From: a virus
Direction: 5' to 3' (one strand)
Virus record (IMG/VR): IMGVR_UViG_3300025759_000466
Location: 1 to 29,672 of that record
Length of the DNA stretch: 29,672 bases
Shown: one piece after another, positions 1-29,309 of the stretch
Layout of the letters: each line of letters opens with the position of its first letter
Numbering within the stretch: position 1 is the first letter of the stretch
Position numbers and translations under genes: made by a program
The notes under the pieces: generated by a model
What the model was told of the DNA's origin: nothing
Seen by the model: only the letters and a program-made list of their open reading frames with translations
Databases searched by the model: none

Positions 1-201
1 AGATTTCTTTCTTTTCATGCCTGCGCTAGTGCATGCAGACATTGTGGGGCGGCATGCTGGGTAGCCTGTCTTTCTACTCTTGCCTGTATTCTTTCTACCG
101 CAAGGCACAAACTTGCCTGCGGCTTTAGAAGCTTTACAGTCTACCCAGCCCTTGCCTGAGTTTCTGCTAAACCACTTACGTAAGTTTTCGCTACCGCTCA
201 T
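1..201 (-). CDS. Small Lys/Cys-rich phage protein, C-terminus cut by window edge
   Basis: Reading the minus strand from the ATG at 201 gives an open frame of 67 residues that runs off base 1 without a stop. It begins MSGSENLRKWFSRNSGKGWV and continues with DCKASKAAGKFVPCGRK, then YPACRPTMSACTSAGMKRKK. The KWF..(N/K)GWVDC..PCGR..YPACRP pattern resembles a family of short basic proteins (I believe DUF5872-like) found in marine phages and some algal viruses; that name is from memory. Four cysteines are visible among many Lys and Arg, which would suit a metal- or disulphide-stabilised nucleic-acid-binding or internal virion protein. Its ATG overlaps the TGA of the upstream gene (ATGA), which supports this start. 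Function unknown. Confidence 0.7.
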   Translation of the reverse strand, partial: MSGSENLRKWFSRNSGKGWVDCKASKAAGKFVPCGRKNTGKSRKTGYPACRPTMSACTSAGMKRKKS

Positions 202-368
202 TTCTTTTTCTTTTTGTTGCCCCAGTTCTTAGCACCGACCTTACGGCACTTAGAAAGAGCGCCAGATGCATATGCTGAAGGCCAGACTCTGTATCTAGAC
301 TTGACCTTGTGATAGCACGCATCTCGCTTAGCCCCACCCTTTTTGTATTCTAGGGTTGGGTAGTTCAT
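198..368 (-). CDS. 56-residue Lys/Cys-rich conserved phage protein
   Basis: A short complete frame on the minus strand runs from ATG at 368 to TGA at 198-200 and encodes 56 residues: MNYPTLEYKKGGAKRDACYH, then KVKSRYRVWPSAYASGALSK, then CRKVGAKNWG and a lysine tail. The DACYHKVK..Y.VWPSAYASGALxKCRKVGA.NWG signature is one I recognise from many marine phage genomes, where it is usually a small protein of unknown role; the recognition is from memory. Two cysteines, high positive charge and several aromatics suggest nucleic-acid binding or packing inside the virion. Both ends overlap neighbours by ATGA junctions, so it is probably translated by coupling. No enzyme motif is visible. Confidence 0.8.
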   Translation of the reverse strand: MNYPTLEYKKGGAKRDACYHKVKSRYRVWPSAYASGALSKCRKVGAKNWGNKKKKK

Positions 369-1045
369 CTCTTAGATCTCTTACGACGGTCCTTCATACC
401 GCCCTTGCCGAACAGTGAGCCAACTGCTGGTCCTGAAGGTCCTTGGCCTCTAGCAGCTTTCTTTTTGGCCTTAGCCTCTTTCCTTGCTGCTCTCTTGGTA
501 ACCTTAGCGCTGTCCTTTTCAAGACCCTTGAGCAAGTCTGAGGTAGTCTTCTCCACCAAGAATGGTGACTTTGGCTTAGTAACCTTCTTCTTTTCCTTAA
601 CGTTAGGAGATGTCATGTCACCCTCCTTGTACTTCATCATTCCATTCTTCCCCTTCTTGATGACACCGCGGCCCTTCAAGATATCAGCTTGTGTTACCTT
701 GCCGTCACCAGTCAAATCAGGAAACTTCTTGCCTTTGCTTTTAAAGTCACCAGCCTTCTTCTTCATCATGCCTTTCTTGGCAGCAGCAGGAGGTCCAGCA
801 GATGGGCCACCACCCATTACGCCTGCGACTTTGTTTGCCATTCCAAGTCCCTTACCAATCTTCTGCATTGTGGGATTGTCAGACTTCTGCATAGCTCCTG
901 CAGCAAGTCCTGCTACTGGGCCAGCAAGTGCTCCAAGCATTGCTTTCTTTCTAGGCTTCTTCTTAGGGTCTACTCCGGGCTTCACCGCTCCGAACTTCAG
1001 TCTCTTAGGACCTTTAGACATGTAGGATGCTTTTCCTTTTTTCAT
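365..1045 (-). CDS. Very basic 226-residue protein with a hydrophobic segment and an EF-hand-like loop
   Basis: The protein is dominated by Lys, Arg, Gly and Ala. Residues 1-34 are basic. Residues 36-51 form a small Ala/Gly/Leu hydrophobic stretch (MLGALAGPVAGLAAGAM). Residues 110-121 read DLTGDGKVTQAD, which fits the calcium-binding loop of EF-hand or dockerin repeats (acidic or oxygen side chains at positions 1, 3, 5, 9 and 12, Gly at 6). The C-terminal third is lysine-rich and probably disordered or helical. Such proteins occur in marine phages without known function; an internal, DNA-associated or membrane-active virion component is possible. It starts 11 bases after the 40-residue gene and ends in an ATGA overlap with the next small gene. 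Function unassigned. Confidence 0.75.
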   Translation of the reverse strand: MKKGKASYMSKGPKRLKFGAVKPGVDPKKKPRKKAMLGALAGPVAGLAAGAMQKSDNPTMQKIGKGLGMANKVAGVMGGGPSAGPPAAAKKGMMKKKAGDFKSKGKKFPDLTGDGKVTQADILKGRGVIKKGKNGMMKYKEGDMTSPNVKEKKKVTKPKSPFLVEKTTSDLLKGLEKDSAKVTKRAARKEAKAKKKAARGQGPSGPAVGSLFGKGGMKDRRKRSKR

Positions 1046-3032: not shown

Positions 3033-3248
3033 TTATGAGTCTATTTGTTTACGAGCTAATATCAGCTTTATCTCAGCGATGTCTGAAGCAAGCTGCTTCA
3101 GAGTAGCATGAACTTCATCGTTCTGTCTCTCTAGGGCTATAATCCTAGACTTGTTCTTGCTTATCTCCTGAGTGAGCTTTACGTAGGTACCTACGAGACC
3201 ACCAGCCAGTATGATAATTTGATATAGATTAAGGGTATCTAGTTCCAT
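3033..3248 (-). CDS. 71-residue membrane/coiled-coil protein (holin or XhlA-like candidate)
   Basis: I choose the ATG at 3248, which shares a base with the upstream stop (TAATG), over the in-frame TTG nine bases earlier. The N-terminus is acidic (MELDTLNL), followed by one hydrophobic segment at about residues 9-24 (YQIIILAGGLVGTYVK), then a charged helix to the end with heptad-like Ile and Leu positions (ISKNKSRIIALERQNDEVHA and beyond). One N-terminal membrane segment plus a cytoplasmic or periplasmic coiled coil resembles small XhlA-type lysis proteins and some spanin-like proteins. It could equally be a virion membrane anchor. A separate, better holin is present at 6926-7324. Confidence 0.6.
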   Translation of the reverse strand: MELDTLNLYQIIILAGGLVGTYVKLTQEISKNKSRIIALERQNDEVHATLKQLASDIAEIKLILARKQIDS

Positions 3249-3511
3249 TATTTCCAATTACTGCACGATCCGCATCTCCAGACACGAAGTGACTTGTTTA
3301 TTCTTGAGTTAGGGTCTCTTGCTGTTTTGGCGCTGGTTAGTCTTCTCTTCATGCCACACATCCGCTTGCAGAAAGAGTTGCGCCTCTTACCGCCTTTGGG
3401 TTGTGGTGGCTTTATATTTTTGCCCTGGGCACGCAGTGATGCTCTACCCTTGGCATTAAGTCCTCCCTTAGGATTCTTACCTTCTTTTCTTGTCCAAGCT
3501 CCTGATGCCAT
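3248..3511 (-). CDS. 87-residue basic protein, DUF6321-like family
   Basis: The protein begins MASGAWTRKEGKNPKGGLNA, followed by KGRASLRAQGKNIKPPQPKG, RRNSFCKRMCGMKRRLTSAK and DPNSRINKSLRVWRCGSC. The WTRKEGKNPKGGLNAKGR...SFC.RM.GMK..LTSAKTA.DPNSRINKSLR.W.C pattern is one I recognise as a conserved small phage family (DUF6321 from memory, found in marine myoviruses and others). It has five cysteines, strong positive charge and no hydrophobic core of any length. Biochemical role unknown; nucleic-acid or zinc binding is plausible. It is one of several tiny Lys/Arg/Cys-rich proteins at this end of the window. Confidence 0.8.
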   Translation of the reverse strand: MASGAWTRKEGKNPKGGLNAKGRASLRAQGKNIKPPQPKGGKRRNSFCKRMCGMKRRLTSAKTARDPNSRINKSLRVWRCGSCSNWK

Positions 3512-4559: not shown

Positions 4560-4843
4560 CAGTCACAGCTGTAGTAAGCCAGTACCTTAGCACCTGAAGT
4601 AAATGCTACACTTGCAAAGTCCCCGAAGATTGTTACACCTGCAGGTATTGCAAAGTCTACTGCATCCTCAATGTTGGAGGTGCATGCAGAGACATCCAGT
4701 GTGGACTCTGCTATAGCCTGTACAGCTGAGAATGGTCCTGAGTGCTCGCTGGTATCATCTATGAAAATGACACCGCAATCCCCTACACTAGCTCTATCTT
4801 TGATAGACTTCAGCAGTCTTTCTTCTTTTGTTTGAAAAGCCAT
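4559..4843 (-). CDS. Small virion-associated protein (94 aa)
   Basis: The product begins with a basic helix (MAFQTKEERLLKSIKDRASV), then SGPFSAVQAIAESTLDVSAC and ends with short strands (FAIPAGVTIFGDFASVAFTS, then VLAYYSCD). The GPF.AVQ...E.TLD.......N..... .IPAGVTI.G.F....L.SG..LAYY pattern is common in small phage proteins encoded near tail or fibre genes. The closing strands recall the C-termini of the 141- and 142-residue beta proteins in this window, so a shared small structural fold is possible. Its ATG overlaps the upstream stop (TAATG). Confidence 0.65.
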   Translation of the reverse strand: MAFQTKEERLLKSIKDRASVGDCGVIFIDDTSEHSGPFSAVQAIAESTLDVSACTSNIEDAVDFAIPAGVTIFGDFASVAFTSGAKVLAYYSCD

Positions 4844-5520
4844 TACTGTTGTGGTTTATTGTCTTGTTGTTTATCATTCTCCGTATCTGGGAAAGTGCCC
4901 ATCAACAGTTTTAATTCACCCCCGATCACACCTTGGTTGATCGCAGAGATCATGTCCGCAGGTAGAGGGTATGGACTTTGATCATCATAACAAGGTCCAT
5001 TGTTACAGGTATTGAATTTGAATACCTCTTCAGGGTCTTCAAAAACTCCTCTAACATTTATTGCCTCCAAGCCGTTAGGATTGTAGACGTAAATATACTC
5101 ATCAATTACGTAGTATTTGCTAAGTCCAGAAGTATATTTATCATATTGTAGGTATTCTACCTCATAAGGTTCTACTCTAGGAATAGTTCCTGTACCATCA
5201 GGTTTACCTATGTACGTAAAAGCGTCCTTGAAATTGAATCTAACTGTCCTAGGCATTTTCGTGTTTGTTCTATACACTGGACAATCAGTGGGTAGATTGC
5301 AGCACTTACTACCATCCACCTTTATCAGGTTAATACAACCTAGATCTTGTTCTATAGTTTTAGAGACGTGCCCATTGCGAGCATAGTCTCTACGTATTAA
5401 CATAGCACGATAGTGCTTAATGTTAAACTTGATCTGATCTAACGAGATATTCTCGTCATTGCTTGATCTACCCCCACGAACAAGGTTCAGAAGGTTGTAT
5501 GCCATTTCATCCAAAGTCAT
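4843..5520 (-). CDS. Conserved connector/ring-type structural protein (225 aa)
   Basis: The N-terminus MTLDEMAYNLLNLVRGG, then DENISLDQIKFNIKHYRAML, IRRDYARNG and IEQDLGCINLIKVD matches a protein I recognise from crAss-like and related phages (MTL.ELAY..L.LIR.G..SDDE.IS..QI.F.I.HYRA.LIRRD...N......EQDLG). It has paired cysteines (SKCCNLPTDC and CNNGPC) and strand-rich middle regions (FTYIG, KYYVIDEYIYVYNPNG). The C-terminus is polar and Gln-rich. Such proteins probably form part of the neck or ring assembly under the portal. It overlaps the small acidic gene by 14 bases. The start pattern also resembles that of the 405-residue protein at 18971-20188. Role inferred from family resemblance. Confidence 0.7.
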   Translation of the reverse strand: MTLDEMAYNLLNLVRGGRSSNDENISLDQIKFNIKHYRAMLIRRDYARNGHVSKTIEQDLGCINLIKVDGSKCCNLPTDCPVYRTNTKMPRTVRFNFKDAFTYIGKPDGTGTIPRVEPYEVEYLQYDKYTSGLSKYYVIDEYIYVYNPNGLEAINVRGVFEDPEEVFKFNTCNNGPCYDDQSPYPLPADMISAINQGVIGGELKLLMGTFPDTENDKQQDNKPQQ

Positions 5521-5800
5521 CGAACTGATCTTTTGCTTTCACTAATTCTGCGCACTTCTCGTACTCTTCTGTATCTGCGAAGTACTGTATAATATCATCG
5601 ATGACCAATGTGAACGTTTCAGGAGCTGTTGGATCAAACGGCAAGAAGATCATGTCCTCTGCTTTGTCCAGCAACTCCTTAATGGTGAGCTTGCCTGTAG
5701 CTACTTCATAAGCATTTCTATAGGCCTCATCCAATATCTCCATCTCCTCTTCGGCAGAGGCTAGGGAGTCTTCATCATGTTCATCTTCAAACTCTAACAT
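5507..5800 (-). CDS. 97-residue acidic helical protein
   Basis: The open frame extends upstream to an ATG at 5947, but that would overlap the C-terminal part of the metallophosphoesterase gene by 160 bases. I place the start at the internal ATG at 5800 (MLEFEDEHDEDSLASAEEEM), which overlaps the upstream stop by 14 bases. The product is strongly acidic and mainly helical, with TGKLTIKELLDKAEDMIFLP, then PFDPTAPETFTLVIDDIIQY and EEYEKCAELVKAKDQFDDFG. The DD.I.YF...EEYEKCAEL.. motif recurs in small phage proteins of unknown role. It could be a chaperone for a neighbouring structural protein or a regulator; function not assigned. Confidence 0.65.
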   Translation of the reverse strand: MLEFEDEHDEDSLASAEEEMEILDEAYRNAYEVATGKLTIKELLDKAEDMIFLPFDPTAPETFTLVIDDIIQYFADTEEYEKCAELVKAKDQFDDFG

Positions 5801-6929
5801 TTGCTTGTAAATATCCTTCAAGTCCCTTGAACTTATTCCATATATATGCTTGCCCTGTTCGTTTAGCTTCATACCCCATTTGCTTATGCCATTCATCGTT
5901 AGGACAAATAGAAGGTATGAACCGTACTTTGATACCTCTGTACTCATTTACCATTTCTTTGTGAAGATGCCCGCAGTGTACCTCGCGGTGCTTAGTACGC
6001 GCAAACATTTCTGGTTTTTCAGTTGCCATTATGAGTGGCATGTCTGCAGGCTTCTCCTTGTCTCCGTGGGTAAACATCAACATGTTGTCTCCGTACTCGT
6101 AGTACTTGCGAGAGCTGTAGCTGTTATCCACTTTGACATTGTCATCATTCCTGTACCATCCTGCTAGCACATCTCCTGCATAGAACATGCGCTCGTAGTC
6201 ATGGTTGCCTGATACAACGATCACATCTACAGGAGCCTTCTTCTTCAAGAAGTCTATTGCACTTGTCATCAGTTGCCAGTAGCCTCTGAAGGTATCCTTC
6301 CATCCTCCGGAATCCTGTTGTGGTGTTCCTTTGGTGGTGGTACCTCTCATCCCCTCTGAGTTCATACCATCATTCCCAATAGGGAGTATGAACTTCTCAA
6401 TCTCAAGCCCCGCTGCTTTCTGTACAAGCTCTTCCACAACCATCAGGTATTGCATCTCTATCTGTGTGAGACTCAAATCATGAAGCTTGCCGTAGTGAAT
6501 GTCTGGGAGTGATATCTCGTATGCCACTGGCTCTACGATTGGTTTACGCTGTATTCTTTCAACCGTGGGGCTGTAGGTTGCAGCGAAGCGTTCTATCTCA
6601 TCTTTGATAGCTTCAACGCTCATAGACTCTCCTTTGGTAACAACTGAGAATCTCTGTTGTCCAGACACCGTCTGCCAGAACTTTACACTGGAAACATCGG
6701 ACGGGGTGATGCCATTCTTGTCAAGGTATGATTGGAACTCAGTGATAACGCTGTTGTTGTCGTTATCGTTATCAATGCTTTCCTCTCCACGAGCTAGCTT
6801 TCTAGCTTCGTACAACGCTGTCTCACAATCTTCGATAGGGCAGTTAAGTCTCTCAGATAGTACGTCAGCGCTTTTCTTTAGATAACCAGGTTTTTCTGTT
6901 AAGAAGTCCTTGATTTCATCTATAGTCAT
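5787..6929 (-). CDS. Calcineurin-like metallophosphoesterase (380 aa)
   Basis: Residues about 135-350 carry the two-metal phosphoesterase motifs in order: LPDIHYGKLH (D143, H145), PIGNDG (184-189), GNHDYE (241-246), FTHGDK (287-291, H288) and CGHLHKE (H321, H323). This is the calcineurin-like/Mre11-SbcD superfamily fold, which uses Mn or Fe ions to cleave phosphodiesters or phosphomonoesters. Residues 1-105 form a helical, acidic extension (including DNDNDNN at 53-58) that may bind a partner or DNA. It starts with an ATGA overlap after the holin gene. Phage homologues are described as nucleases or phosphatases; substrate unknown. Placement inside the late lysis/structural block rather than a replication block is unusual. 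Confidence 0.88.
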   Translation of the reverse strand: MTIDEIKDFLTEKPGYLKKSADVLSERLNCPIEDCETALYEARKLARGEESIDNDNDNNSVITEFQSYLDKNGITPSDVSSVKFWQTVSGQQRFSVVTKGESMSVEAIKDEIERFAATYSPTVERIQRKPIVEPVAYEISLPDIHYGKLHDLSLTQIEMQYLMVVEELVQKAAGLEIEKFILPIGNDGMNSEGMRGTTTKGTPQQDSGGWKDTFRGYWQLMTSAIDFLKKKAPVDVIVVSGNHDYERMFYAGDVLAGWYRNDDNVKVDNSYSSRKYYEYGDNMLMFTHGDKEKPADMPLIMATEKPEMFARTKHREVHCGHLHKEMVNEYRGIKVRFIPSICPNDEWHKQMGYEAKRTGQAYIWNKFKGLEGYLQANVRV

Positions 6930-8205: not shown

Positions 8206-9722
8206 AAGTGGATCTTGGCTACACCACTAGTTGCAGCAGATCCAGGATTTGTAAGTCTTATTATGCAGCTACCCGCTGATGGTGTGTCTGCAACATTTGC
8301 TATGAGTGTAGCACCATCTGCTTCTATAGCAACTGCAGCACTCTGTATGCTCAACAAGATAACAGAATTAACTGCTATGTTTGAGTTTGTGAAAGTGAAA
8401 GATTGCTCAGCACCACCTGCGATTGTTGTAGCATGCAGTGAGATTATCCCAGCAACAGCATTCAGGGTTACACCCGTAGTAATGCTAGTAGACTGAGTTA
8501 CTGCTGATGTACCCTTCATCACGAGACCCTCATCTGTATCAATTGTGAGGCTGCCTTCGTTGATCGTTACATCGTAGCTGCTATCAACAGTGAGTGCATC
8601 AGTACCAGCAACTTTGAGGACAACAGTTCCATCAGAGCCACTGCCTGCTTTTGCTCCACCCTCTATGTAGACAGTACCACCATCTGCGTTTCCTGCTGCA
8701 GCACCACCTTTTACAGTAACTGAACCACCATCGTGGGCATCACCGTTTGTAGATCCTGCGATAGTAAGTGCAGGAGATGCTCCTGATGAGGAGTTTCTAA
8801 GCTTCAAGGTCTGAGCAGAAGATCCTGTGCTATTTCCAAGTTCTACATCACCGTCTACGTTCAGCGTGCTTGTGAAGTATGCAGATGAGTCACCAATGTA
8901 TACGTGGTCGTTGGTTGTACTAAGTGACAACCCCTGGGTAGTAGTACCAGAGCCAGTGATAAACCCACTACCAATATCGATAGCGTTGTCGTTGGTCTCA
9001 ATTGTAGCAGTAGCGCTGATAGTGTTTACTGTAGGCTTAGCCCACTTAACACCGTTAGCTTGAGCAGAATCTGCAGTCAATACAAAACCTGTAGTCCCAA
9101 CTGTCAATGAGGTTGGGGCAGTAGAAGCTGATGTACCTACAACTATTGATCCTTTGGGCATTGCAGCTATTGCTTGCAGTGCACCAGTACCGTTGCCGTA
9201 CAGTATTCCATACTGCGTCAAGGTTGTAGCGCCAGTACCCCCACTACCAATAGGGAGTGTACCTGTGTGGTGGCTAGTATCGCTAAGAGTCAATACGTTG
9301 CTACCCCCAGACTCTGACAAGAATCTAGCGCTTGTGTTGCTTGCAACGTTAAGATCAATGTTTGCTTGACTCAGCTCGATGACAATGTTCTTCTTTGCAG
9401 GATCTGCTGTGCTTACATCGGTTCTGATTTTCAGTGCCCCGTTGTCGTCATCGACATTGATTCCCTTGAAAATAAGCACAGACTTGTCTGCGCTTCTTGT
9501 GCTACTACCAATACCCCCACCTACGAATATATCTTGAACTGTAGTACCTGCTGTACCCTCAGTAACAGCACCGGTCACCTTACCACTCTGCAGTGTTGGG
9601 AGAACGTCATTAAGGCCAATCCTAGTAGAACTTCCAGAGTCTACGTTACTCAAGAGCAAGTACTCTCTGCTGGTGTTACCAGACTTGTCGATTGTTCTAA
9701 GTTCGTTTATACGTTTAGCCAT
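8181..9722 (-). CDS. Tail fibre / spike protein (513 aa)
   Basis: Residues 1-45 (MAKRINELRTIDKSGNTSRE, YLLLSNVDSG, TRIGLNDVLPTL) look like the N-terminal virion-anchoring segment of phage fibres. Residues 155-190 hold LPIGSGGTGATTLTQYGILY, then GNGTGALQAI, the GGTGAT..... fibre motif seen in many phages. The shaft is Gly/Ser/Thr/Ala-rich with repeating strands (GGSVTVKGGAAAG, GGTVYIEGGAKAG, GTVVLKVAG). The C-terminal 100 residues form a more compact beta-rich tip (SFTFTNSNIAVNSVILLSIQ). It has one Cys. It directly follows the giant adhesin gene with a TAATG start. Host-surface binding is the likely role. Confidence 0.85.
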   Translation of the reverse strand: MAKRINELRTIDKSGNTSREYLLLSNVDSGSSTRIGLNDVLPTLQSGKVTGAVTEGTAGTTVQDIFVGGGIGSSTRSADKSVLIFKGINVDDDNGALKIRTDVSTADPAKKNIVIELSQANIDLNVASNTSARFLSESGGSNVLTLSDTSHHTGTLPIGSGGTGATTLTQYGILYGNGTGALQAIAAMPKGSIVVGTSASTAPTSLTVGTTGFVLTADSAQANGVKWAKPTVNTISATATIETNDNAIDIGSGFITGSGTTTQGLSLSTTNDHVYIGDSSAYFTSTLNVDGDVELGNSTGSSAQTLKLRNSSSGASPALTIAGSTNGDAHDGGSVTVKGGAAAGNADGGTVYIEGGAKAGSGSDGTVVLKVAGTDALTVDSSYDVTINEGSLTIDTDEGLVMKGTSAVTQSTSITTGVTLNAVAGIISLHATTIAGGAEQSFTFTNSNIAVNSVILLSIQSAAVAIEADGATLIANVADTPSAGSCIIRLTNPGSAATSGVAKIHFFIINTTT

Positions 9723-12700
9723 TAGATTATAATTTCTTGACCATCAGCCCCCAATATACCAGAGAGTCGGTCACCGTTAGAGTTGTCTTTAGGATTAAGA
9801 TAGTTGTCCAATTTCTTTGGATCTATCAGGTTGGTTGGTTCTGTTTGGGTTGGTGTGTTCTCTACCGAGCAGGCCGTACACATACGAGTCATGAACTCGT
9901 AGAAGGTCTGCAAGTACTTTTCATCACCAGTTGCAACGTTTGTCTTGGTCTGAAGCCTGTAGCTGTAGCAACGCTTCCAGCCTGACTGTGGCAGTCCTGG
10001 GTGCAATCCAAGTGGGGCTATGTCTCTCTCAGCTATGTAGAAGTTCTGAGTCATAGTACCCTGCTTGAGCCTATTGTACAACACCATGTTGCCTTTGGTG
10101 TACCCGTCATTCCCGTTCCAGATTCTTCCACCACCTGACAACCAATCAGCCTGACAGTCTTTGACCATAGACCTTTGCTTGGAGTCATTGAACAGTGCCT
10201 GGTCACAGTTGAACAAGCAGTCAAGGAGATTGCCCTCCAGACCACCCATGAACAGGTAGCTAATCAATGAAAGCTTGATAATGTCCTCTCTCTCGTACTG
10301 AGATCCAGCCTTGAGTCTGAACATCAACCTCTTGCCCTCATCAGACATGCACTGGAATGCTTGTTCCTGTACAATAGAGAATCCTCCGGCCTGTCCAGCG
10401 AACGTACATGGCACCTCTACAGGTGGGTCAATAATAAGAACAGGGGGATCTGAAGTAATTTCTCCTGTCTCTTCTTCCTCCGGACAGTTACCCAAAATCA
10501 CACATGGTGGTGGTGGGGGCTCACAGTCATCGGGAGTAGGACATGGGTTTGATATAACTGGGTCACACTCTGGATTCTCAGGATCTGGACATATAGAAGT
10601 CTGCTGACACTCTACATCAACCGCTGGATCACATGGTTCCCCAGTTATACAATCTGGATCATCGATTGGGTCTGTGCATGAGCAGTAGTCACATATCAAG
10701 TTGTTTGACGCATCAAGTGGTGCATCAGGGTTGTAGTTGCAAGCATTTGGATCTGTGCACTCACCCTCTGACCCAGTAGTAGGATCACAAATAATCTCCT
10801 CTACCCTACCTGTCTTGTACTTGTATCTACCACTTGCGGGCAGATTCTCTTGTGCATCTGTACAGTCTATGCAATCCTCATCATCTGGATTGTCATCGCA
10901 GAAGGATGGGGGCTCTTCACAGCTACCATCATCGATTGTAGCATCTTCGTCGTAGTTGTCTGCTTCAGGATCTGTGCATCCTGGGTTCCAAGGATCACAC
11001 AAACCATCATCTCCTGGATCAAGACATGGTGGAATGCAATCATCCTCTGGAGGATTCATGGTTATGGTGGTGGTCTGTATTGAGCTTTCATACAAGAGTA
11101 TGTCCGCTGTGGTACAGTCCGCCAGGTTATCCGAGATGTTAGGGAGGTTCGGAACAACAAGCACGTAGTACGTACCTGGGATCAATCCCCCGTTCATGTT
11201 GCCTGCATTCTCGAACGTAACAGTGTAAGAAGACTGGCCTGGATTGGTGTATTGAAGAGGACTCCAGTATCCCACTCCGTCGATTACGATTGGGTTCTCA
11301 ACATTTGCATCAGGGTATGATTGGAATGTAAGAGCCAGTGAGTCCAAATAGCTATTCACGAAGCTGTACAAAGACTGGCCCCCAGGTATACCCAGCACAA
11401 CTGCAAAAGAGTCAACTGCGTAAATGTCTGGGGTGTAGTCTACAGTAACTGTAATTGAGCCTGTGCTTGTATTCGGTACTGGGACTTCATACTGCACAAC
11501 CTGTCCACCAACAACCACTTCCACCAGCTCACATACGGACTCCATGTTTACAGATGTAACCGTAGCGTCAAATACGGGGTTGCTGATTATCTCTTCACCG
11601 CACCCACCATCATCACACGTACCATCATCAATTGTTGCTGCAGGGTTGTATGTGCTGGAGGCTGGATCAGTACACCCAAGTATTACATCTGGGCACTCTG
11701 CAGTAAGGAATACATTGTGCGTATAGGTGCAGGGAGCATCTATACCCGCCTCTATCGCTGCTTCGGGGTATGGGTTAAGTATAGTTATTGTTATCAGGTA
11801 ATCACCTTCCTCTGAAAGTCCCTCAAACGTATTCTGCCAAACATCTGGGAATCCTTCTCCCCCACTATTTGATGCCTCATTCTGGCTTTGCGTTATAACT
11901 TCACCACTTGGGGTAGTCAGCGAGACCGTATAGGTCATATTGGGGTTGAACTGGTATGAGTTGGTAAATGGATTCCACATACCATCTATCTGCGTGGTGA
12001 TGTATCCGTCGGCATACCCGAACTGATACGCATCAGGCCCAGTCGATACAATGTAACCATTCGTCGCAAGATCTTCTAGATCATATGGCGGGCCGTCAGG
12101 CAAATCCCCAACGTTGATACACTGCAAATTTCCTTCAAGCGCACACGATGCTACGAATAACTCACACGATGTAAGTTCATCATCTATCTGATAGCATATA
12201 CTAGAGTTGTCTGATACAGTTACACCAATGAATGGACCATCCCCTAGAGCACCATTGACTCCATTAAGAGATTGCAGGCCGTTGCTATTACTAGTGGTAG
12301 TGCACTTGTAGTTTTGTGACGCAGCTGTACTTACATCTGTAGTCAAGCTAAATATTGGGAAACTTCCCCCACTGAGGTTCCATGCCCACTCAAAGTTGGC
12401 CAATGCTGCAAAGTAGTAGTCGTTTCCTACAGAAGCACAGCTGCATATACCTGTCCAGAAGATACCGTTCAATACAAACTCTGACAGGTCTCCCAGATCA
12501 TCATCACATCCTGTTGCCTCCAAACCGAGCTGGAACAGGTAAGGTTGCCCTGCAAGTATGTTGGTATTTTTGTATACCCCGTCTGTAAGAGTTGCAATGT
12601 TCGTCCACTCTGGGGCTTGAATTGTACCTCCCGTAGCCAAACTGTTGAATATAATTGTGCTTGTATCCACCAAAGAGTCTGGAGTGTCACCGCCAGACCC

Positions 12701-15700
12701 TCCATTGTAGATAGGATTTGACCAATCGATGCTACCATCGTTTATCATCCCATCGGTTAGTACTCTTATACGAAGTCTCCATGCAGTATAGTCATCTCCC
12801 CCGTCTTCCAGCAAAGAGAGTATATCATTCATTTGGAGTCCGGCACCTGTGTTGAGTACCTCTACTACAAACTTAGGCTTATCATTTTCCTCGGCCCACT
12901 CAGCAACTTCCCCTATCACGTGGTTGTCGCACAGAATAATTCCTCCACGGCGTGAACCGGGGCTTGTTATAAACACATCTTGCTCTGTCTCCGGAAGCCC
13001 GCCCGGGAAGTACGAAGCTGTGGTGTTATTGTCTGGGTGCTGTATAGTAGCAAGAGAGTTGTCACCTCCCACAAACTGGAAGCCTCCATGTCTAACCATT
13101 CCAAACCTCAAAGCCTGGAATGGGGATGAGGCGCTAGTGGCCTGAGTAGCGTTGAAGTCTAGGGATGATCCTAGGTAGAGATCGCTGCAGTCCTGACAAG
13201 ACCCATCATTTGTAGTGGCGTCTGGGTTGTAGTTAGGTGCTGACGAGTCTGTACATCCCTCTATGATAGACTCAACTATGTCATCGACTACCTCCTCATC
13301 AATGTAACCATAGTTCAGGAAAGGCATGTGGAAGATATGCCTATCCTTCATCTTAAGCTGTCCAGCACTGGTGATCTGATTGTATGCTGGAACGTCGCCT
13401 CCACCAGCGGTGGTTGTGTAATTTTCCAGGTCTTCGTAGTAGCTAGAGCTGTATGCAATAGTTATGAAACTTCCCTTAAACCCTGAATATCCTATGCTCT
13501 CGGGTCTGCTATCCTCAGAAGCCTTGTACAGGCCATATGCTTGTCTCCACTTACTCGGTATTCCAGGGGCATTTACTGCTGAGCCGTAGACCGCATTGCT
13601 GTTACCTAACAGCGTACTGCTGTTCTCTGGGAAGATGTCTGGGAAGATGTCTGTGTTTGCAGCATCAAGCTCAACATCTACCTCTGCAGGATTGTCGTAT
13701 ACGTCATCGTCGTCTGCTACAATTTCTATCAGCAGCTGGTATTTGCCTGGGGCAGTTTCAGTAACACTGATGTTATCTACGTCATCGGCATCCTCCAGTA
13801 CAACTTTGTACGAGTACTGGTTTACTCCTGCGGGACTCAACTGTGACAAAGGGCTGTATTCTATATGCCCAAACATCTCTAGAACTTTAGCAAGTCTCGC
13901 ATCTACAGTGCCGGAGTTGGCAATTTTGCTGCCGTCATCTGTCTCAAACTCCCCAGTGCATGAGTTCTCATACCGCATTAGGAACCTAAAGCCGAGGCCC
14001 TGAGCTCCCTCAAAATTAAATGCTCCACCAGATAAGGTTCCTGAGTCGTAAATAGGATAGCCAGCACCAGTCTGAGCTGATAAGTTACCATTCTGATTCC
14101 AGGTACTTTGCTCAGTGCTTTGGTTGCTGATTATATTGTACATACCAGATACCACCAGACACTCATCTGTTCCTGCAGCTATAATGCCCTTGTCAAAGGG
14201 ACTTAGGTTAAAAGGCTGGTACGTAGGCAGGTGATAGTTTATATAGCTCCCCGGAATTATTTGTCCCTTATATAAATTGTTAGAAGCAGTAAACACGTCA
14301 TTCCCATCACCATCGTTTGTCTGAGTTCTAGCAGTCATGTTAGGTGCTGCCAAATCCATAGGATAGCTGCTGTTAGAGCCCAGTCCGTTTGCGGTTGAGT
14401 ACGGGTATGGGAATACAGCCCCTAGAGTGCTTCCGTTGCCGTATGAACCATTCTCATTGTCATTGAGTAGGTTTACATTCCCAACACTCAACAGGAACGG
14501 GGTGGAGCCTTCTTTTCCTGCGTAGTAATCTGTTATTATCTGACTGTCAGAATTCTCAAGAGAAAGAGACTGCGGTAAACCATTTACTGATCCTTCCTTG
14601 TAGGTACTACCAACAGGGTGGTTCGTGACAAGGCTGTACCTCTCATTTTGATAATCGCCACTTATGGCTATACCGTCTTTTACAGGGGCATATCCGTAGA
14701 GCATGAAGGATATGTCATTTGCAAACAGCTTACTTATCCCATTCTCGTCCATGGGGTCGCCGTTCTTAAATGCCTTCCTAGCCTCCTTTACTGCAATTTC
14801 TGCATCAGCAAGTCCGTTCGGAGATCCTCCAATGTATTGGTTTCCTCCTATCAGGTTGTTGTATAGTTCTGCATTGAGGCCTGTAAGTGCAGGAGCTTGA
14901 CCTGAGTTTCCGTATGTGTGCCCACTGAATATAAGACTTGCGTACAAGTCCCAGGGGCTGTGTGGGTTCTGACCATCACTTGTATCAAGAGCATGGTAAA
15001 CCCCGTAGAAGTCCAAGTAGCTGACAGGGTTCTTGCTGCTATCAAATGTAGTATTTGATGCAAATGTACCCCCCACCTCATTTGCGGAGATCAAACCTGC
15101 CTCAAAGTTTGTGCCGTCACCCATAGCGTTGAGCTTCCATCTCAATCGATCAAGAATGCCTTCTCCGCTGGGCCATTGGTTTGTATTAGTTATATACAGC
15201 GTGCGTATAATACCTTTAAATACAGGCACCACAAAGTCTTCATCATCCGAAAGGTATCTACCTCCTGTATAGAAGAAGTTCCTACCTATGTTCATGCGAA
15301 TGTCATGAAGCGAGCCCCCTTGAGATAGTTGGTTGTTTGCCGAGCTTGTTCCGACAACTGCAGTGTTTGTGCCGAAGGGTTGATATACATCCCTGCCAAA
15401 TCCTAAGCCAACCTGTGTCTTAAGAAATGCGTTGCCATCAGCGCTGTTGTATAGCCTTGCAAAGACACTCAAATAACCGCCTGACCCCCCAGCACCATCC
15501 TTTATCCCAGGAGCTCTTGAGCTAGCAGATTGGGTAGTCAGTAGATTAAAGCCGCTCCAGTAGTAGGGCCTCATCGCCCCAGTCAACCTGGACCACCTCA
15601 TAGATTGTGGTGGGATTATGTTTGTTCCAAATAACGGGTTATTGAAATTTGTTGCTCCATAAACAGCAGCGTTGTCCCTCTCAAAGTGATCTGAGAAGAG

Positions 15701-17383
15701 CGGAGGCACTGAAGACGCCGAGTCTCTCTCTAGTACAGTACCGAAGAACCCGGACTGGCTGATGTTTTGAGTTCCATCAACACCATCTCCTGATTGTATA
15801 TTGTTTATATGTTTGCCGTAGAAAGCAGCAGAAGCCTCAGGAGCAGCATCAAATCCCCACCCTGTGGATACATTGGGATTTAGAGCATATATCTCGGGAT
15901 TGGAGTCAGCGAACTGATTTATTCTTGTAAACGGAACAGCATTGTTTCTAGCCCAGAACATAGGTATGCCCCACATTGAGCGAACTGGGTCATTTGCCAA
16001 CCCGTTTCTATACAAACCAGTACTTCCTGTCCAACCCAGCCATCCGTACTTAAGACCCCAGCTAGACTCTCCAAGAGGCTCTGGGTTGTCTCCTGCGTAA
16101 TTTGACTGAGGTGATATACCAAAGAAGTTGTTGAGGTTTATTACATCATTCTGGAAGTTCTGTAGACTGCCTTTGGCTCCTGCATAAGAAGGCTGACCAT
16201 CGTATCCCCTATAGATCCAAGTATTGTCCCACTGCCCTGTAACAAATGTCAGGAAACTGTGTTGCCGTGTGAAATACCTTACGTTCTGAATAGCAGGCCC
16301 TGTATAATTAGGGCCTCCCAATATTAGATAATTGAGATAGTTGACAGAGCTGGGAGCCAATCCGCCACTTCCAGGTGTAGAGTCTGTGTAACCATCTCTA
16401 GCCCAGTTACCGGGGACACTAAGATTTGCGTTCCCGTACATGTTGGGCAGTATACCATTTCCGTTAGGGTCATAGTTGTTTGCCGCAAAGTTTGAAGGAT
16501 CAGAAGTGTCCCATCCATTAAGTAGTCCTGAGTAAGGCTGACTTGTATTGCTGAATACTATTGCCCCCCAGGGCTGTGCATATGGTGTATAAGCTATGTC
16601 GTCAGTTAGAAACTGAACGTTCTCCAAGTGATCCTCAGTAAGCTTCTTTCTGGAGATGCTGTACCACGTATTGCTAGGTATACTACCAGTTACTTGCTGG
16701 TAGTTAGACTCTCCTTTGGGCTTACCTACGTATGCCTTTGAGATATTGTACGTGGCTATCCCTGTGTACTCATCACTGCTATTGGGTACCCCAACGTGTT
16801 CAAATCCGAAAGCTTTGTCGAACTGAGGTGGCTCATCATTAAGTGACAATCTACAGTTTTCAGGGGGCATCAGTCTAACCCACAGATCATCTTGAGATCC
16901 GTCTGAAAAATTCACCAAAACTTTGAGATAGACTGTAGCAAGCAGCTCGTCAACGGCATCGTTGTATAAGTCACTGCCTCCAGGGATTACTATATCTATC
17001 CCCTGTCTGGGGTAACCAGCATGGACTGTAGCCCAAGTAATTATCCTATGAGCAATGGCTTGTCCTTGATAATCATACGTGTAGTTCCCAAAACTACCTG
17101 CCCCAACACCAGGACTGTTACCTACATTTCTAACTGCGTAACGTTTTGCGCCAATAGGTATGGCCATTACAGGTCTAACAGATGCACCAGCATTGTCAGC
17201 TACAGCAACGTCTTCTAGTGAGGGGTTGTTTATTGCAGCAAAATTGCCTGATGCAGGCCATTCTATTCTTACTACAATCTCGCTGCTCGCACCTGCAATA
17301 TATGGGTTAAGAACATTTGCAATGCTAGGCTTAAGCTGATAAGCAAACAGGACTTTTTGTGTCCCTTGTGTTACGTTTGGCAT
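9722..17383 (-). CDS. Giant 2553-residue virion/adhesin protein with CTD...DDGSC repeats
   Basis: This single frame takes up a quarter of the window. Residues 1-1370 are Cys-poor and rich in Asn, Gly, Ser, Tyr and Pro, in many short segments that look like beta-rich structural modules. From about 1370 on, cysteine content rises sharply. Four copies of a motif C-T-D-x5/6-N-Y-N/D-P-x-A-x4-D-G-S/T-C are visible at about 1375-1400, 1903-1928, 2134-2158 and 2207-2235 (the last degenerate). Similar motifs are common in secreted proteins of marine Bacteroidota. A Pro/Cys/Asp-rich linker (about 2160-2310) precedes a distinct C-terminal domain (about 2310-2553) with FQCMSDEGKRLMFRLKAGSQ, MGGLEGNLLDCLFNCDQALF and YSYRLQTKTNVATGDEKYLQ. 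No tape-measure-like coiled coil or membrane helices are evident. Likely a tail or appendage adhesin; function inferred. Confidence 0.75.
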   Translation of the reverse strand: MPNVTQGTQKVLFAYQLKPSIANVLNPYIAGASSEIVVRIEWPASGNFAAINNPSLEDVAVADNAGASVRPVMAIPIGAKRYAVRNVGNSPGVGAGSFGNYTYDYQGQAIAHRIITWATVHAGYPRQGIDIVIPGGSDLYNDAVDELLATVYLKVLVNFSDGSQDDLWVRLMPPENCRLSLNDEPPQFDKAFGFEHVGVPNSSDEYTGIATYNISKAYVGKPKGESNYQQVTGSIPSNTWYSISRKKLTEDHLENVQFLTDDIAYTPYAQPWGAIVFSNTSQPYSGLLNGWDTSDPSNFAANNYDPNGNGILPNMYGNANLSVPGNWARDGYTDSTPGSGGLAPSSVNYLNYLILGGPNYTGPAIQNVRYFTRQHSFLTFVTGQWDNTWIYRGYDGQPSYAGAKGSLQNFQNDVINLNNFFGISPQSNYAGDNPEPLGESSWGLKYGWLGWTGSTGLYRNGLANDPVRSMWGIPMFWARNNAVPFTRINQFADSNPEIYALNPNVSTGWGFDAAPEASAAFYGKHINNIQSGDGVDGTQNISQSGFFGTVLERDSASSVPPLFSDHFERDNAAVYGATNFNNPLFGTNIIPPQSMRWSRLTGAMRPYYWSGFNLLTTQSASSRAPGIKDGAGGSGGYLSVFARLYNSADGNAFLKTQVGLGFGRDVYQPFGTNTAVVGTSSANNQLSQGGSLHDIRMNIGRNFFYTGGRYLSDDEDFVVPVFKGIIRTLYITNTNQWPSGEGILDRLRWKLNAMGDGTNFEAGLISANEVGGTFASNTTFDSSKNPVSYLDFYGVYHALDTSDGQNPHSPWDLYASLIFSGHTYGNSGQAPALTGLNAELYNNLIGGNQYIGGSPNGLADAEIAVKEARKAFKNGDPMDENGISKLFANDISFMLYGYAPVKDGIAISGDYQNERYSLVTNHPVGSTYKEGSVNGLPQSLSLENSDSQIITDYYAGKEGSTPFLLSVGNVNLLNDNENGSYGNGSTLGAVFPYPYSTANGLGSNSSYPMDLAAPNMTARTQTNDGDGNDVFTASNNLYKGQIIPGSYINYHLPTYQPFNLSPFDKGIIAAGTDECLVVSGMYNIISNQSTEQSTWNQNGNLSAQTGAGYPIYDSGTLSGGAFNFEGAQGLGFRFLMRYENSCTGEFETDDGSKIANSGTVDARLAKVLEMFGHIEYSPLSQLSPAGVNQYSYKVVLEDADDVDNISVTETAPGKYQLLIEIVADDDDVYDNPAEVDVELDAANTDIFPDIFPENSSTLLGNSNAVYGSAVNAPGIPSKWRQAYGLYKASEDSRPESIGYSGFKGSFITIAYSSSYYEDLENYTTTAGGGDVPAYNQITSAGQLKMKDRHIFHMPFLNYGYIDEEVVDDIVESIIEGCTDSSAPNYNPDATTNDGSCQDCSDLYLGSSLDFNATQATSASSPFQALRFGMVRHGGFQFVGGDNSLATIQHPDNNTTASYFPGGLPETEQDVFITSPGSRRGGIILCDNHVIGEVAEWAEENDKPKFVVEVLNTGAGLQMNDILSLLEDGGDDYTAWRLRIRVLTDGMINDGSIDWSNPIYNGGSGGDTPDSLVDTSTIIFNSLATGGTIQAPEWTNIATLTDGVYKNTNILAGQPYLFQLGLEATGCDDDLGDLSEFVLNGIFWTGICSCASVGNDYYFAALANFEWAWNLSGGSFPIFSLTTDVSTAASQNYKCTTTSNSNGLQSLNGVNGALGDGPFIGVTVSDNSSICYQIDDELTSCELFVASCALEGNLQCINVGDLPDGPPYDLEDLATNGYIVSTGPDAYQFGYADGYITTQIDGMWNPFTNSYQFNPNMTYTVSLTTPSGEVITQSQNEASNSGGEGFPDVWQNTFEGLSEEGDYLITITILNPYPEAAIEAGIDAPCTYTHNVFLTAECPDVILGCTDPASSTYNPAATIDDGTCDDGGCGEEIISNPVFDATVTSVNMESVCELVEVVVGGQVVQYEVPVPNTSTGSITVTVDYTPDIYAVDSFAVVLGIPGGQSLYSFVNSYLDSLALTFQSYPDANVENPIVIDGVGYWSPLQYTNPGQSSYTVTFENAGNMNGGLIPGTYYVLVVPNLPNISDNLADCTTADILLYESSIQTTTITMNPPEDDCIPPCLDPGDDGLCDPWNPGCTDPEADNYDEDATIDDGSCEEPPSFCDDNPDDEDCIDCTDAQENLPASGRYKYKTGRVEEIICDPTTGSEGECTDPNACNYNPDAPLDASNNLICDYCSCTDPIDDPDCITGEPCDPAVDVECQQTSICPDPENPECDPVISNPCPTPDDCEPPPPPCVILGNCPEEEETGEITSDPPVLIIDPPVEVPCTFAGQAGGFSIVQEQAFQCMSDEGKRLMFRLKAGSQYEREDIIKLSLISYLFMGGLEGNLLDCLFNCDQALFNDSKQRSMVKDCQADWLSGGGRIWNGNDGYTKGNMVLYNRLKQGTMTQNFYIAERDIAPLGLHPGLPQSGWKRCYSYRLQTKTNVATGDEKYLQTFYEFMTRMCTACSVENTPTQTEPTNLIDPKKLDNYLNPKDNSNGDRLSGILGADGQEIII

Positions 17384-18970: not shown

Positions 18971-20188
18971 TTACTCGCTCTCCAGGACTTCCCTGGATTG
19001 CGTATTATATCTTGGGGATTCGAATCCTTCCAAGATGCTTTTAACTGCCATTTCTACGATCTCATGATGCGTATGCTCTGGCAGCTCGCAGCCTACTCCA
19101 CCACGTTTGGTCATAGAAGCAGGCTTACGGATATACCTTAACTGTATGTAGCTAGGTATAAAAGTTGTGTTAGTATACAAATCTACAAAAGTTTCCTGTA
19201 TCGTATACAAGATAGAGTCAGGTTTTGTAGAATTAAAAGGGTCATCAAGAAGTGCATAGATATCGTCTTGCTGAGAAAACTTGCACTTTGTCCTATAGAT
19301 TCTAAGTACCCCTTCAGGCTGACTAGTTGTCACTGGACTATGCTTGATGATAAAAGTTGAGGTTGGTGCTGTAGAACTAACCAATTCTACTTCCTCCCCA
19401 TCTACTGGGTTGATCCATGTAATGATGTAGTAGGCACCATTGTATCCTGTAGCATCTCCCCCTTCTTCGCCACTGCCTTCAATAGAAGCTCCACTGATTG
19501 GGATGAATCCTTCTTCATCTCCAGAGTATACCTTTTCAAGGTAGAGCTCGTTGCCGTCAGCAGGGGGTGAGTCTGTAGCTACAGTATCAAAGTATCTGTC
19601 TGTAAAGCTGTCGTTGTTAGACAAGCTCGGTACTATCCCCATCCCATAGTACGGACCAATCAAGTAGTCGTAAGACAATCCTCCAGGTGAGGATATGACT
19701 TCTTCTGGTGTACCGCTAGCATTTGCTATCTGGATACTCTTGATCTTGTATCCTGGGAGTGGTGGGGTAAGAGAGATCTTGAGATAGTCCTTGTACACGT
19801 TAGTCTCCGTAAACGGGAGAGCCTTATTTCTGCAGTCATGTGTGACCTCAGCCATCACGTTGACAAGGAACATGTAGTCATTGGGAACCTTGTATCTGTA
19901 TGAAGATATATTCCCGTTTGTTTTTGATGTATACCCAATCCCCATGAAGCTGTGGGTCTCTGTGGTATAATCCTCCACGAGGTGGCGGAGGTCGTCCAAT
20001 CTCTTCTGAGACTGTTCGAACCCCCGCTGATATTTATTGCCTCGTGGATTGTAGCGCTGATTGATGAATCTGCGCATAGCAGTGTTTAGCTCGTAGTCTA
20101 TTTCTTCTGGAAGAAGACCATCTGCTTGGAAGGATGCAATCTTCTGCACCCCCAAGTTTACCGCTATGTGCATTTCTTCTATCGTCAT
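18971..20188 (-). CDS. Connector/ring-type structural protein (405 aa) with FnIII-like insert
   Basis: Residues 1-60 (MTIEEMHIAVNLGVQKIASF, then DGLLPEEIDYELNTAMRRFI and NQRYNPRG) form a helical start typical of a phage neck family I associate with crAss-like and related phages. Residues 75-160 carry strands with a YRYKVPNDYMFLVNVMAEVT core, and residues 345-365 (YIQLRYIRKPASMT) look like the closing part of the same domain. Between them, about 245-335 resembles an inserted fibronectin-III-like or Ig-like module (GAYYIITWINPVDGEEVELV, then EGVLRIYRT). The protein has three Cys. It starts in an ATGA overlap after the 267-residue gene. Probably a ring or adaptor beneath the portal. Confidence 0.65.
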   Translation of the reverse strand: MTIEEMHIAVNLGVQKIASFQADGLLPEEIDYELNTAMRRFINQRYNPRGNKYQRGFEQSQKRLDDLRHLVEDYTTETHSFMGIGYTSKTNGNISSYRYKVPNDYMFLVNVMAEVTHDCRNKALPFTETNVYKDYLKISLTPPLPGYKIKSIQIANASGTPEEVISSPGGLSYDYLIGPYYGMGIVPSLSNNDSFTDRYFDTVATDSPPADGNELYLEKVYSGDEEGFIPISGASIEGSGEEGGDATGYNGAYYIITWINPVDGEEVELVSSTAPTSTFIIKHSPVTTSQPEGVLRIYRTKCKFSQQDDIYALLDDPFNSTKPDSILYTIQETFVDLYTNTTFIPSYIQLRYIRKPASMTKRGGVGCELPEHTHHEIVEMAVKSILEGFESPRYNTQSREVLESE

Positions 20189-21075: not shown

Positions 21076-22530
21076 TTACGATGCAGTGCACTGCAAATCG
21101 AGCGAAGTATCGAATCTGCGGAGCAGGATACCAGCCGTCTTCAACATGTGCACAGAAGCACCGTCTATATCACTTGCGCGAGTGTCAGACTCTGCGAAGC
21201 CCTTAGGCACAACAGAACCAGCAACAGCCCAACGCAACATCTCACGACCCTTCTTGTTGATCATCTGGAGGTTGTTCTCTCCGTCATACGTAGACTGATC
21301 GACGAACGTCATTCTGTATGATTCGAGAGGCAATCCAGTCTCAGGGTGCTTCTTAGAAGCCTGAGCAACAGGACCATGGTCAAACAATGGAGACTTCACC
21401 ACGTTCACTCTGTGACCATCGATGTGGTCGTATGAAGTGAAGTAACCGGTGATACCCAAGCTACGACCGCTTCCAGTGATGAACTTAGACTCAGTAGTCT
21501 GGAGGTATCTGTTGTCACTGCTGCCGTAGTAGTTACGCAGAGCCTTATCGAACTCACGTGCACCACCAACACCAGTGTACAACGTCACCTGCTTGTCCGT
21601 AGCATCAGTCATGCCGTAGAACAAGTCACCGATAACATCCTCAATCTTCTTCTGAGTCAAAGTAGAGTAAGTGTCCTTGTTGATGATCTGCTCGAACAAA
21701 CCAGGACCAGAAACAACTGGTTGACCGTTCTCGTCAGTCATCTGCGTACGACCATTGTCGTCATGAGTACGCTGACCGTACCAGTAGTACATCTCACACT
21801 CTTCCTTAAACTTGAGCATGTGACGGTACTCTTCGTAGTCCATCCACAACTTGGTAGAAGAACCTTCCTTGGTTGGGAGCTCGAACTCAGCAACGTAGTC
21901 CTTAGCGTTACCAGAGAACTGGTAAGACTTACGGACAGTACCAATCTTAGAGCGGACCAAACCAGGAGCTGTCCAGTTAGAAGCATTTCCGCGAGAGAAG
22001 TCCATTCCAACGTTTGCGAACAACATACCCCAGAGTGCGCCTGCTGCGAGGTCACCACCAGCAGCTGTGCTCAATCCACCTGCGTTGGGCTTAACCAACT
22101 GGAGGGTGTATTCGAAACCATCTGCGACGGGCATAGGATCAGTCATAATACGAGCCAACTCACCTGATTGTGAAACCAAGGTGTATGGGAAGATGAACCA
22201 CTTGTCGGGGAACACCACCTTAAAAGTTGAACCGTTAGAACCAACGGTGGTGTCGTCACCACCAGATTTCTGAGCCACACGAACAACCGGACGGGTGTTA
22301 ACTTCATGGGTTTTGACACGGTACTCGTACTCGTAACGATCGATCGAGCGCGTGTTGCCAACCCCTTCTGTCAAGAAGGAAAGAGGAAATTTCTTTTCTT
22401 CACGTCCGGCCAAGTGCGTAATGATGGGAGAGAGCTCTGTGGGCTTCTCCATCAGGGCATTGACCAACGAATTTGTGTCGGTCATTTGCGAGTCATTGTA
22501 GTACGTTTTCAGTACTTGCATCAAAGCCAT
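21076..22530 (-). CDS. Major capsid protein (484 aa)
   Basis: Assigned by position and character: portal, virion lysozyme, acidic scaffold, then this 484-residue gene, followed by a strong hairpin and neck genes. It begins MALMQVLKTYYNDSQMTDTN and contains segments typical of HK97-fold capsids: a long helix-rich middle (MDYEEYRHMLKFKEECEMYY, then WYGQRT), strands such as FKVVFPDKWFIFPYTLV and a loop AGGDLAAGALWGMLFANVG. LYTGVGGAREFDKALRNYYG is a recurrent capsid-like motif. It has two Cys, one in the helical middle and one near the C-terminus. Several alternative plus-strand frames across it are shadows. Length and order fit the crAss-like type of head module; family assignment is inferred. 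Confidence 0.75.
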   Translation of the reverse strand: MALMQVLKTYYNDSQMTDTNSLVNALMEKPTELSPIITHLAGREEKKFPLSFLTEGVGNTRSIDRYEYEYRVKTHEVNTRPVVRVAQKSGGDDTTVGSNGSTFKVVFPDKWFIFPYTLVSQSGELARIMTDPMPVADGFEYTLQLVKPNAGGLSTAAGGDLAAGALWGMLFANVGMDFSRGNASNWTAPGLVRSKIGTVRKSYQFSGNAKDYVAEFELPTKEGSSTKLWMDYEEYRHMLKFKEECEMYYWYGQRTHDDNGRTQMTDENGQPVVSGPGLFEQIINKDTYSTLTQKKIEDVIGDLFYGMTDATDKQVTLYTGVGGAREFDKALRNYYGSSDNRYLQTTESKFITGSGRSLGITGYFTSYDHIDGHRVNVVKSPLFDHGPVAQASKKHPETGLPLESYRMTFVDQSTYDGENNLQMINKKGREMLRWAVAGSVVPKGFAESDTRASDIDGASVHMLKTAGILLRRFDTSLDLQCTAS

Positions 22531-23719: not shown

Positions 23720-24661
23720 TTATCTTTTATACCTCCTATTACTATATGACACTCCACCAAAACGGAGGCCATACTTGCTGAGTTCTGTCTTAGCGGCTTG
23801 ACGAGACTCTTCGAATGATTTCCTATCCCCCTTTGCTTCTACCTTTTTGTGCCCTTTCAGCCACAGGTCCGCTATTGGCATCTTGCCTGTCGCGTAGTGT
23901 TTTAGGTACAAGTCCGGGTTCTGTGCAATATCAGAGTAGAACAGTGTATACTGTTGGTCCTTAGATAACTGATCTGCGCTAGTAGCCTCCATGATCTCTG
24001 GGTCTGGCTGCAATCCCATTGCTCTAGCTGAAGCGGCGTGTCTTCTTTGTGCAGTTTTAAGGGCTGCTCCCTCGAACTGCAGCAAGCCTCTACCAGGCCC
24101 TCCCCCATCTTGCACAGCTTCGGGGTCCATGCGTTGATGTGGTCCCGACTCATGGAACGCAAGAGTATCTGTTGTAGCTCTCCAGAACTCAGGCGTCTGA
24201 CCTCTAGTATCAGCTAGATGGCGCTCAAATGTTACTGCATCGAGAGTTTCATCGATGTCAGCACTCTCCATACTATCTGTAAAGTCCCCGCCTTGCATGC
24301 GTGCGGGTGTTTCTAGTACTGTACCCTTTGCTGGGCCAGTATCTAGAGATTGGATGCCGGGAGGTACGGACTCGTAGGACTTGACTAGATGTCCCTGCTC
24401 ATCGTACTTCTTTATATCTATCGGGGCTTTCATGCCCACCGTATTGAATGGGGTATTAGGAGGCACGTCCGTGAAGACCATAGACGCTTCCGTATTCCCG
24501 GCCTGATGAAAGGGTCTGAGCCCTTCCTTAATTTGATCAGGGGTACTTGCAACAAATGCTTGAGAAGATGCATCTGCTTGTCTAAACAGATCCACATAGC
24601 TGCCTTGGTATCCTTGCAGCTTTGCGTCGTTTATAATCTGTCTCCTCTGCGCGTTTGTCAT
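23720..24661 (-). CDS. Virion-associated lysozyme / transglycosylase-like protein (313 aa)
   Basis: Residues 160-197 hold the only peptidoglycan-hydrolase-like signature in the window: TDTLAFHESG (E171 as candidate catalytic glutamate), MDPEAVQ and GGGPGRGLLQFEGAALKTAQ. The E-S-G ... GRGL.QFE spacing is that of lysozyme-like/SLT-type muralytic domains. The first 130 residues are polar with several prolines (VPPNTPFNTVGMKAPIDIKK) and may anchor it in the virion. The C-terminus is basic (SYSNRRYKR). It starts at an ATGA overlap with the portal gene and precedes the scaffold gene, so I infer a head- or ejection-associated enzyme that opens the cell wall at infection. Use as the lysis enzyme is not excluded. 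Confidence 0.65.
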   Translation of the reverse strand: MTNAQRRQIINDAKLQGYQGSYVDLFRQADASSQAFVASTPDQIKEGLRPFHQAGNTEASMVFTDVPPNTPFNTVGMKAPIDIKKYDEQGHLVKSYESVPPGIQSLDTGPAKGTVLETPARMQGGDFTDSMESADIDETLDAVTFERHLADTRGQTPEFWRATTDTLAFHESGPHQRMDPEAVQDGGGPGRGLLQFEGAALKTAQRRHAASARAMGLQPDPEIMEATSADQLSKDQQYTLFYSDIAQNPDLYLKHYATGKMPIADLWLKGHKKVEAKGDRKSFEESRQAAKTELSKYGLRFGGVSYSNRRYKR

Positions 24662-28834: not shown

Positions 28835-29309
28835 TGTCTGAGTTGTATATGACACCAAACTTCTTCTTCCCATCCGCCAAGACTTCTGTCTCCCCTGAGC
28901 CTATTGCTGCCCATAGTTGTAGGAACAATGAATTTTCTGCTTGCCTCTGGATGTCATCCACGATGATCACCTTCCCACCCATCTTTAGTTCTTGTACATA
29001 GTTCAGTATTCCTAACCTCCCTATTTTGCCTGGGGGCCCATCGATTAGGAGCATGTCGTAGTCTTTGGGTACTTCGTCTATCACAGCTGGATCGTACCAC
29101 CCATCTACGATTGGGGCATGGTAATAAGTAATGCCGTCGTACTTGTTCATCCACTTCATGTCGTGCTCAACACAGTGCATGTCGTAGTGCTCACTAAGCT
29201 TGTGACTACCAGACCCACTCCCCATCTCCAGTATTTTGACTGGTTGTGGGGATCGTTCTCTGATCCAGTTGTACAGCTTCTCTCCTATGGCCCACCCACC
29301 TAGACTCAT
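28824..29309 (-). CDS. Class I SAM-dependent methyltransferase-like protein (161 aa)
   Basis: The compact fold shows motif I (ILEMGSGSGSHKLSEHYD, residues 26-43), an acidic residue at the end of strand 2 (CVEHD, E48), the strand-4 region DYDMLLIDGPPGKIGRLG (83-100) and a strand-5 GGKVIIVDDI (111-120). At 161 residues it is about the minimal Rossmann core with no obvious target-recognition domain. The IDGPPG segment is like that of small methyltransferases that act on sugars or small molecules rather than of DNA methylases with an (N/D)PPY motif. It lies between TerS and TerL with ATGA overlap upstream. Substrate unknown: virion protein, DNA or glycan are all possible. Confidence 0.75.
   Translation of the reverse strand: MSLGGWAIGEKLYNWIRERSPQPVKILEMGSGSGSHKLSEHYDMHCVEHDMKWMNKYDGITYYHAPIVDGWYDPAVIDEVPKDYDMLLIDGPPGKIGRLGILNYVQELKMGGKVIIVDDIQRQAENSLFLQLWAAIGSGETEVLADGKKKFGVIYNSDNEI

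Follow-up and report, generated by a model that had tools for sequence, protein, structure and literature searches.

Small basic proteins of a marine crassvirus are probable internal head proteins with polyprotein counterparts in T4-like phages

Results

The DNA analysed here (the window) comprises the entire virus record, a linear 29,672-base fragment whose predicted genes are on the minus strand. It is a fragment of a marine crassvirus, a relative of the gut crAssphage, and is placed in Crassvirales because of its terminase, portal, major capsid protein and ring proteins 2 and 3/4; the crassvirus major capsid, ring and terminase proteins that define membership are all present. The terminase large subunit (26879-28873, minus strand, as are all genes below) is about 40-43% identical to those of crAss-like phages, and the portal protein (24658-26868) falls in PHROG 6547. 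The Crassvirus major capsid protein (21076-22530) matches PF23898 with an E value of 2.3e-82, crassvirus ring protein 3/4 (18971-20188) matches PF25710 and crassvirus tail ring protein 2 (4843-5520) matches PF25702. A metallophosphoesterase-like protein (5787-6929) is among the best conserved genes common to the crassvirus relatives seen (66-87% identity); as mechanically called, its reading frame overlaps that at 5507-5947 by 161 bases, and the true start of one of the two is probably further in. The window also encodes an acidic protein of 2553 residues (9722-17383) with 53 cysteines and a repeated GCTDPxAxNYxxxAxxDDGSC motif, probably a surface or adhesion protein, and, between the portal and a very acidic protein, a 313-residue protein (23720-24661) having a sub-threshold DUF192 match (E 0.003).

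At the left end, three consecutive genes joined by ATGA overlaps (P3/P2 and P2/P1) were found on the minus strand, as an earlier note on this DNA had described, and the fourth gene of similar character that it mentioned lies at 3248-3511. P1 (1-201) is a basic four-cysteine protein of the pattern KWF...GWVDC...PCGR...YPACRPT...C which runs off the left edge of the window; 67 residues are visible, and the closest relative has 76, about 9 more. Its identity is 77-83% in crassvirus relatives and 55-67% in the other separate-gene phages listed, and 23 columns are invariant among 24 sequences, comprising the four cysteines and 19 further positions. P2 (198-368) is a basic protein of 56 residues (DACYHKVK...VWPSAYASGAL..CRKVGA..NWG) with two invariant cysteines; the cysteine signatures that had looked conserved from the window alone are indeed conserved in both proteins. 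In other phages the P2 core, a module of PHROG 727 and PHROG 3477 proteins, retains 33-37 of its 38 residues. Of the 31-35 codons that specify unchanged residues, 11-25 (roughly one third to three quarters) differ synonymously. As the synonymous sites are heavily diverged and the protein is kept, the divergence is old and under constraint and does not reflect a recent transfer.

P3 (365-1045) is a Lys-rich, Cys-free protein of 226 residues with a net charge of +47 and a KDRRK tail. It has one EF-hand-like stretch, DLTGDGKVTQADILKGRG, which is also adjacent to, or fused with, P2/P1 at three other loci; a Dockerin match was below the cut-off and was discarded. The counterparts of P3 in relatives adjoin P1/P2 and are Lys/Arg-rich proteins of 120-507 residues with net charges of +30 to +92, several of them with a KDRRK-type tail; P3 is conserved in position and composition, not in sequence. 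P4 (3248-3511; 87 residues, net charge +23) is a member of DUF6321 (PF19846), with an E value of 5.5e-17 and 62.6 bits against a gathering cut-off of 28.5, and shows 80.8% identity over 78 residues to the homologue of the freshwater cyanophage MinM2 (H52). The four are genes and not chance reading frames. The description of small, strongly positive proteins also stands: P1-P4 carry +0.21 to +0.27 net charge per residue and, with values of -0.16 to +0.07 for all remaining genes, are the only strongly basic proteins of the window.

When solved structures were searched by sequence, P1, P2 and P4 had no significant match. In the AlphaFold model of a fused P1-P2-P4 protein, P2 and P4 form short helices (local pLDDT about 80-92); the P1 part is poor, as was P1 modelled alone (pLDDT 55). 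Foldseek with the fused model returned only defensin fragments with E above 3, which were dismissed as chance. The GenBank label 'RecA-like recombination protein', carried by some pelagiphage and cyanophage DUF6321 proteins (L164 3876-4127; L167 7992-8237) which are basic and 81-83 residues long, found no support in this analysis and was set aside.

The modules were found to be closely linked across phages. Of 80 loci selected by P1, 70 have P2 within 500 bases and 52 have P4 within 1.5 kb; of 80 selected by P2, 65 have P1 within 1.5 kb. Since dereplication on the short anchor reading frame was uninformative, the loci were clustered into phage backgrounds by their flanking DNA after masking of the modules. 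By this measure P1 is present in 10 of 15 P2-selected backgrounds and P2 in all six P1-selected ones, and P4 in 5 of the 15 and 2 of the 6, respectively. These backgrounds include unrelated heads, namely the crassvirus capsid, T4-like cyanophages, a gpT-like capsid with an SU10 adaptor and an SU10-type capsid. In phages with separate genes the usual order is P4-P2-P1, commonly with abutting genes or overlaps of 1-4 bases, and single-chain proteins combine P1-P2-P4 (40), P1-P2 (15) or P2-P4 (5). Flavobacterium phage immuto has a P2-P1 protein. The earlier note had proposed one shared process and named absence of co-occurrence in related phages as evidence against it; linkage was found instead, and the conserved adjacency, the stop/start overlaps and the P1-P2-P4 fusion in unrelated phages support the proposal. 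Hundreds of sequenced cyanophage and pelagiphage records hold P2 and DUF6321 modules, and among 84,980 prokaryote genomes only 14 P2 relatives were found, all on metagenome-assembled contigs.

In cyanophages, the single P1-P2-P4 protein is T4-GC119, encoded between the small and large terminase genes. The T4-GC119 protein of S-SM2 (L162 7672-9798) also contains a DUF192 domain (E 3.6e-24). In the fused proteins the modules are more basic and the linkers more acidic. The T4 prohead protease gp21 is known to cleave after L/I-X-E (PMC9026906). Of 147 unique module starts, 106 have a [LIVMF]xE motif, its residue set picked after inspection, in the 8 residues that precede them; random linker positions gave 28±5 and shuffled upstream 12-mers 35±5. 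The strict [LI]xE form precedes 62 of the 147, against 12±3 and 20±4, respectively; the proteins are related, so the counts of both forms are not independent events. At the same 147 starts xD and xK were not enriched, and other spacings were much weaker. Cyanophage T4-GC119 thus has predicted L/I-X-E sites before its mature parts, as is the case for T4-type internal head proteins. Peptidase S77, the gp21 family, is encoded in all four cyanophage records tested and was found in none of eight crassvirus, gpT-like and SU10-like records (including three crassvirus relatives), which are possibly fragments.

Many of the fused cyanophage proteins begin directly with a module and lack a targeting N-terminus. 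T4 internal proteins enter the head via a 10-residue N-terminus (PMC3012670), and the DUF6321 protein S-SZBM1_192 begins with MKTFKQYITE-A, compared to MKTYQEFIAE-A of T4 IPII and IPIII. With a pattern composed after such examples were seen, capsid-targeting-like N-termini were found on 9 of 13 module reading frames vs 8 of 151 other reading frames in one T4-related group, and on none of 672 reading frames of the crassvirus, gpT-like and SU10-like groups. None of the 22 module reading frames of the crassvirus group has a capsid-targeting sequence, and since they lack this signal the window proteins were not classed as T4 internal proteins. The closest relatives of the DNA polymerase of the T4-related group are in jumbo phages like 121Q. 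No S77 was found in the four fragments of this group and no gp23 in those tested, hence the T4 kinship rests on the polymerase. At four loci (L017, L051, L061 and L065), several neighbouring genes have common M[KR]xx[EQ][FL]..E N-termini and resemble a battery of capsid-targeted proteins.

Published virion analyses bear on two of these homologues. The S-CREM2 protein gp137, of which the C-terminus is a DUF6321 domain, was detected weakly in virions with 4 unique peptides and 4.1% coverage (PMC10665884 Table 3), and the DUF6321 protein of S-SZBM1 (locus 192) was not among the 30 virion proteins detected. Further, the note 'similar to Synechococcus phage S-SM1 protein' stands on virion proteins and on T4-GC119 in the S-SM2 and P-HM1 records, and not on terminases or replication genes. 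As Sullivan et al. reported 41 virion proteins of S-SM1, this distribution indicates that the note probably marks the S-SM1 virion proteins.

The gene order to the left of the window was read from crassvirus relatives with longer contigs (L002, L084, L087 and L089). Beyond P2/P1 these have a gene of 160 residues with weak similarity (25% over 52 residues) to crAss001 gp42, which is annotated as HU/IHF-like, followed by a tail tubular/R1 ring homologue and then large proteins at the muzzle position and, for L002, at that of the cargo protein gp45. From this order, the P1-P4 set lies inside the virion gene block, between the R2 and R1 ring protein genes.

Discussion

Our analysis points to P1, P2 and P4, together with the Lys-rich P3, as probable small basic internal head (cargo) proteins, made from separate mini-genes in the window crassvirus and, in T4-like phages, as a polyprotein that a protease would cut. 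In the proposed course of events P1-P4 would be late products like the head and tail proteins; they would be packed into the capsid alongside the DNA and probably leave with it at ejection. In T4-like marine phages a capsid-targeting N-terminus may bring the modules into the prohead, or they may arrive there as a single chain, which gp21 protease would then cut apart at L/I-X-E. The window crassvirus has the same modules as separate overlapping mini-genes with neither targeting nor cleavage signals. Judging by their positive charge and paired cysteines, the modules may be compact and sit on the packaged DNA. The earlier note, whose reading is partly supported, had named DNA condensation inside the capsid as one possible role, and a location there agrees with the targeting N-termini, the protease motifs and the one published virion detection of the homologues, so that the copies of T4-like phages resemble internal head proteins. 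For the window crassvirus itself we infer packaging from homology, location and charge.

It is possible, in a more tentative and wider proposal, that the modules form a conserved kit of cysteine-paired basic mini-domains common to aquatic phages with unrelated heads and different bacterial hosts, which is packaged and, once injected, acts on one universal host or DNA target, as a head-protease polyprotein in T4-like phages and as overlapping mini-genes in the others. The unusual degree to which P2 is conserved, in phages of cyanobacteria and Roseobacter as well as in a crassvirus, suggests that its partner is also conserved.

We consider it rather unlikely that P1-P4 are late, non-packaged nucleic-acid-binding or host-takeover proteins which are co-expressed with virion genes by chance. 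Their strong charge, the weak likeness of the relatives' neighbouring gene to HU/IHF-like gp42 and the failure to detect S-SZBM1_192 in virions are in line with such a role, whereas the targeting and protease signals of the homologues, the detection of S-CREM2 gp137 in virions and the position of the set among virion genes in crassvirus, cyanophage, gpT-like and SU10-like backgrounds argue for packaging. A structural role in the tail barrel, the neck or the packaging apparatus (e.g. as glue, or as assembly factors near the terminase) and not as cargo is unlikely; the copies between R2 and R1 in crassviruses and between the terminase subunits in cyanophages would fit it, but the location of the same set differs between phages and the capsid-targeting signals indicate the head interior. 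The poorly conserved, low-complexity P3 and the spread of the modules over unrelated phages might suggest small selfish genes, low-complexity or hitchhiking, that play no part in the virion; this is highly improbable given the strong purifying selection on P1 and P2 and the conserved partners and order.

The internal head proteins proposed here invite comparison with IPI, IPII and IPIII of T4, which are small and basic and have a capsid-targeting sequence and gp21 cleavage. The T4-like marine homologues share with them the capsid-targeting-like N-terminus and/or the L/I-X-E before the modules. On the other hand, no resemblance of the mature parts was noted (compared without a sequence search), and the modules keep a high degree of conservation from one phage host to another, in contrast to the T4 set, which is described as diverse (PMC3012670). 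The polyprotein layout of cyanophages and the lack of targeting and cleavage signals in the crassvirus copies are further differences. The modules thus suggest that conservation of internal proteins can extend over phage lineages that are unrelated to each other. In case of crAss001, the virion stores several MDa of cargo (PMC10172136), and the P1-P4 set occupies the same genome region as the cargo proteins gp45-gp50 and HU/IHF-like gp42. The crAss001 cargo proteins are, however, large and different from P1-P4, and gp42 has its weak similarity to the gene adjoining P2/P1 in the relatives.

The families themselves are known already: P4 is a member of DUF6321 (PF19846)/PHROG 4689, 727 and 3477, and the P2 core lies within PHROG 727 and 3477 proteins. 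A literature search for DUF6321 found no paper, and the family descriptions mention neither function, P1 link, cleavage sites nor virion context. What is new is the joining of P1, P2 and DUF6321 with cleavage motifs and a virion context. The P1 link, the predicted head-protease processing and the virion link turn several uncharacterised families into one testable system. In Roseobacter phage CRP-901, P2 and P1 are encoded in a gap between annotated genes (L166 7838-8234).
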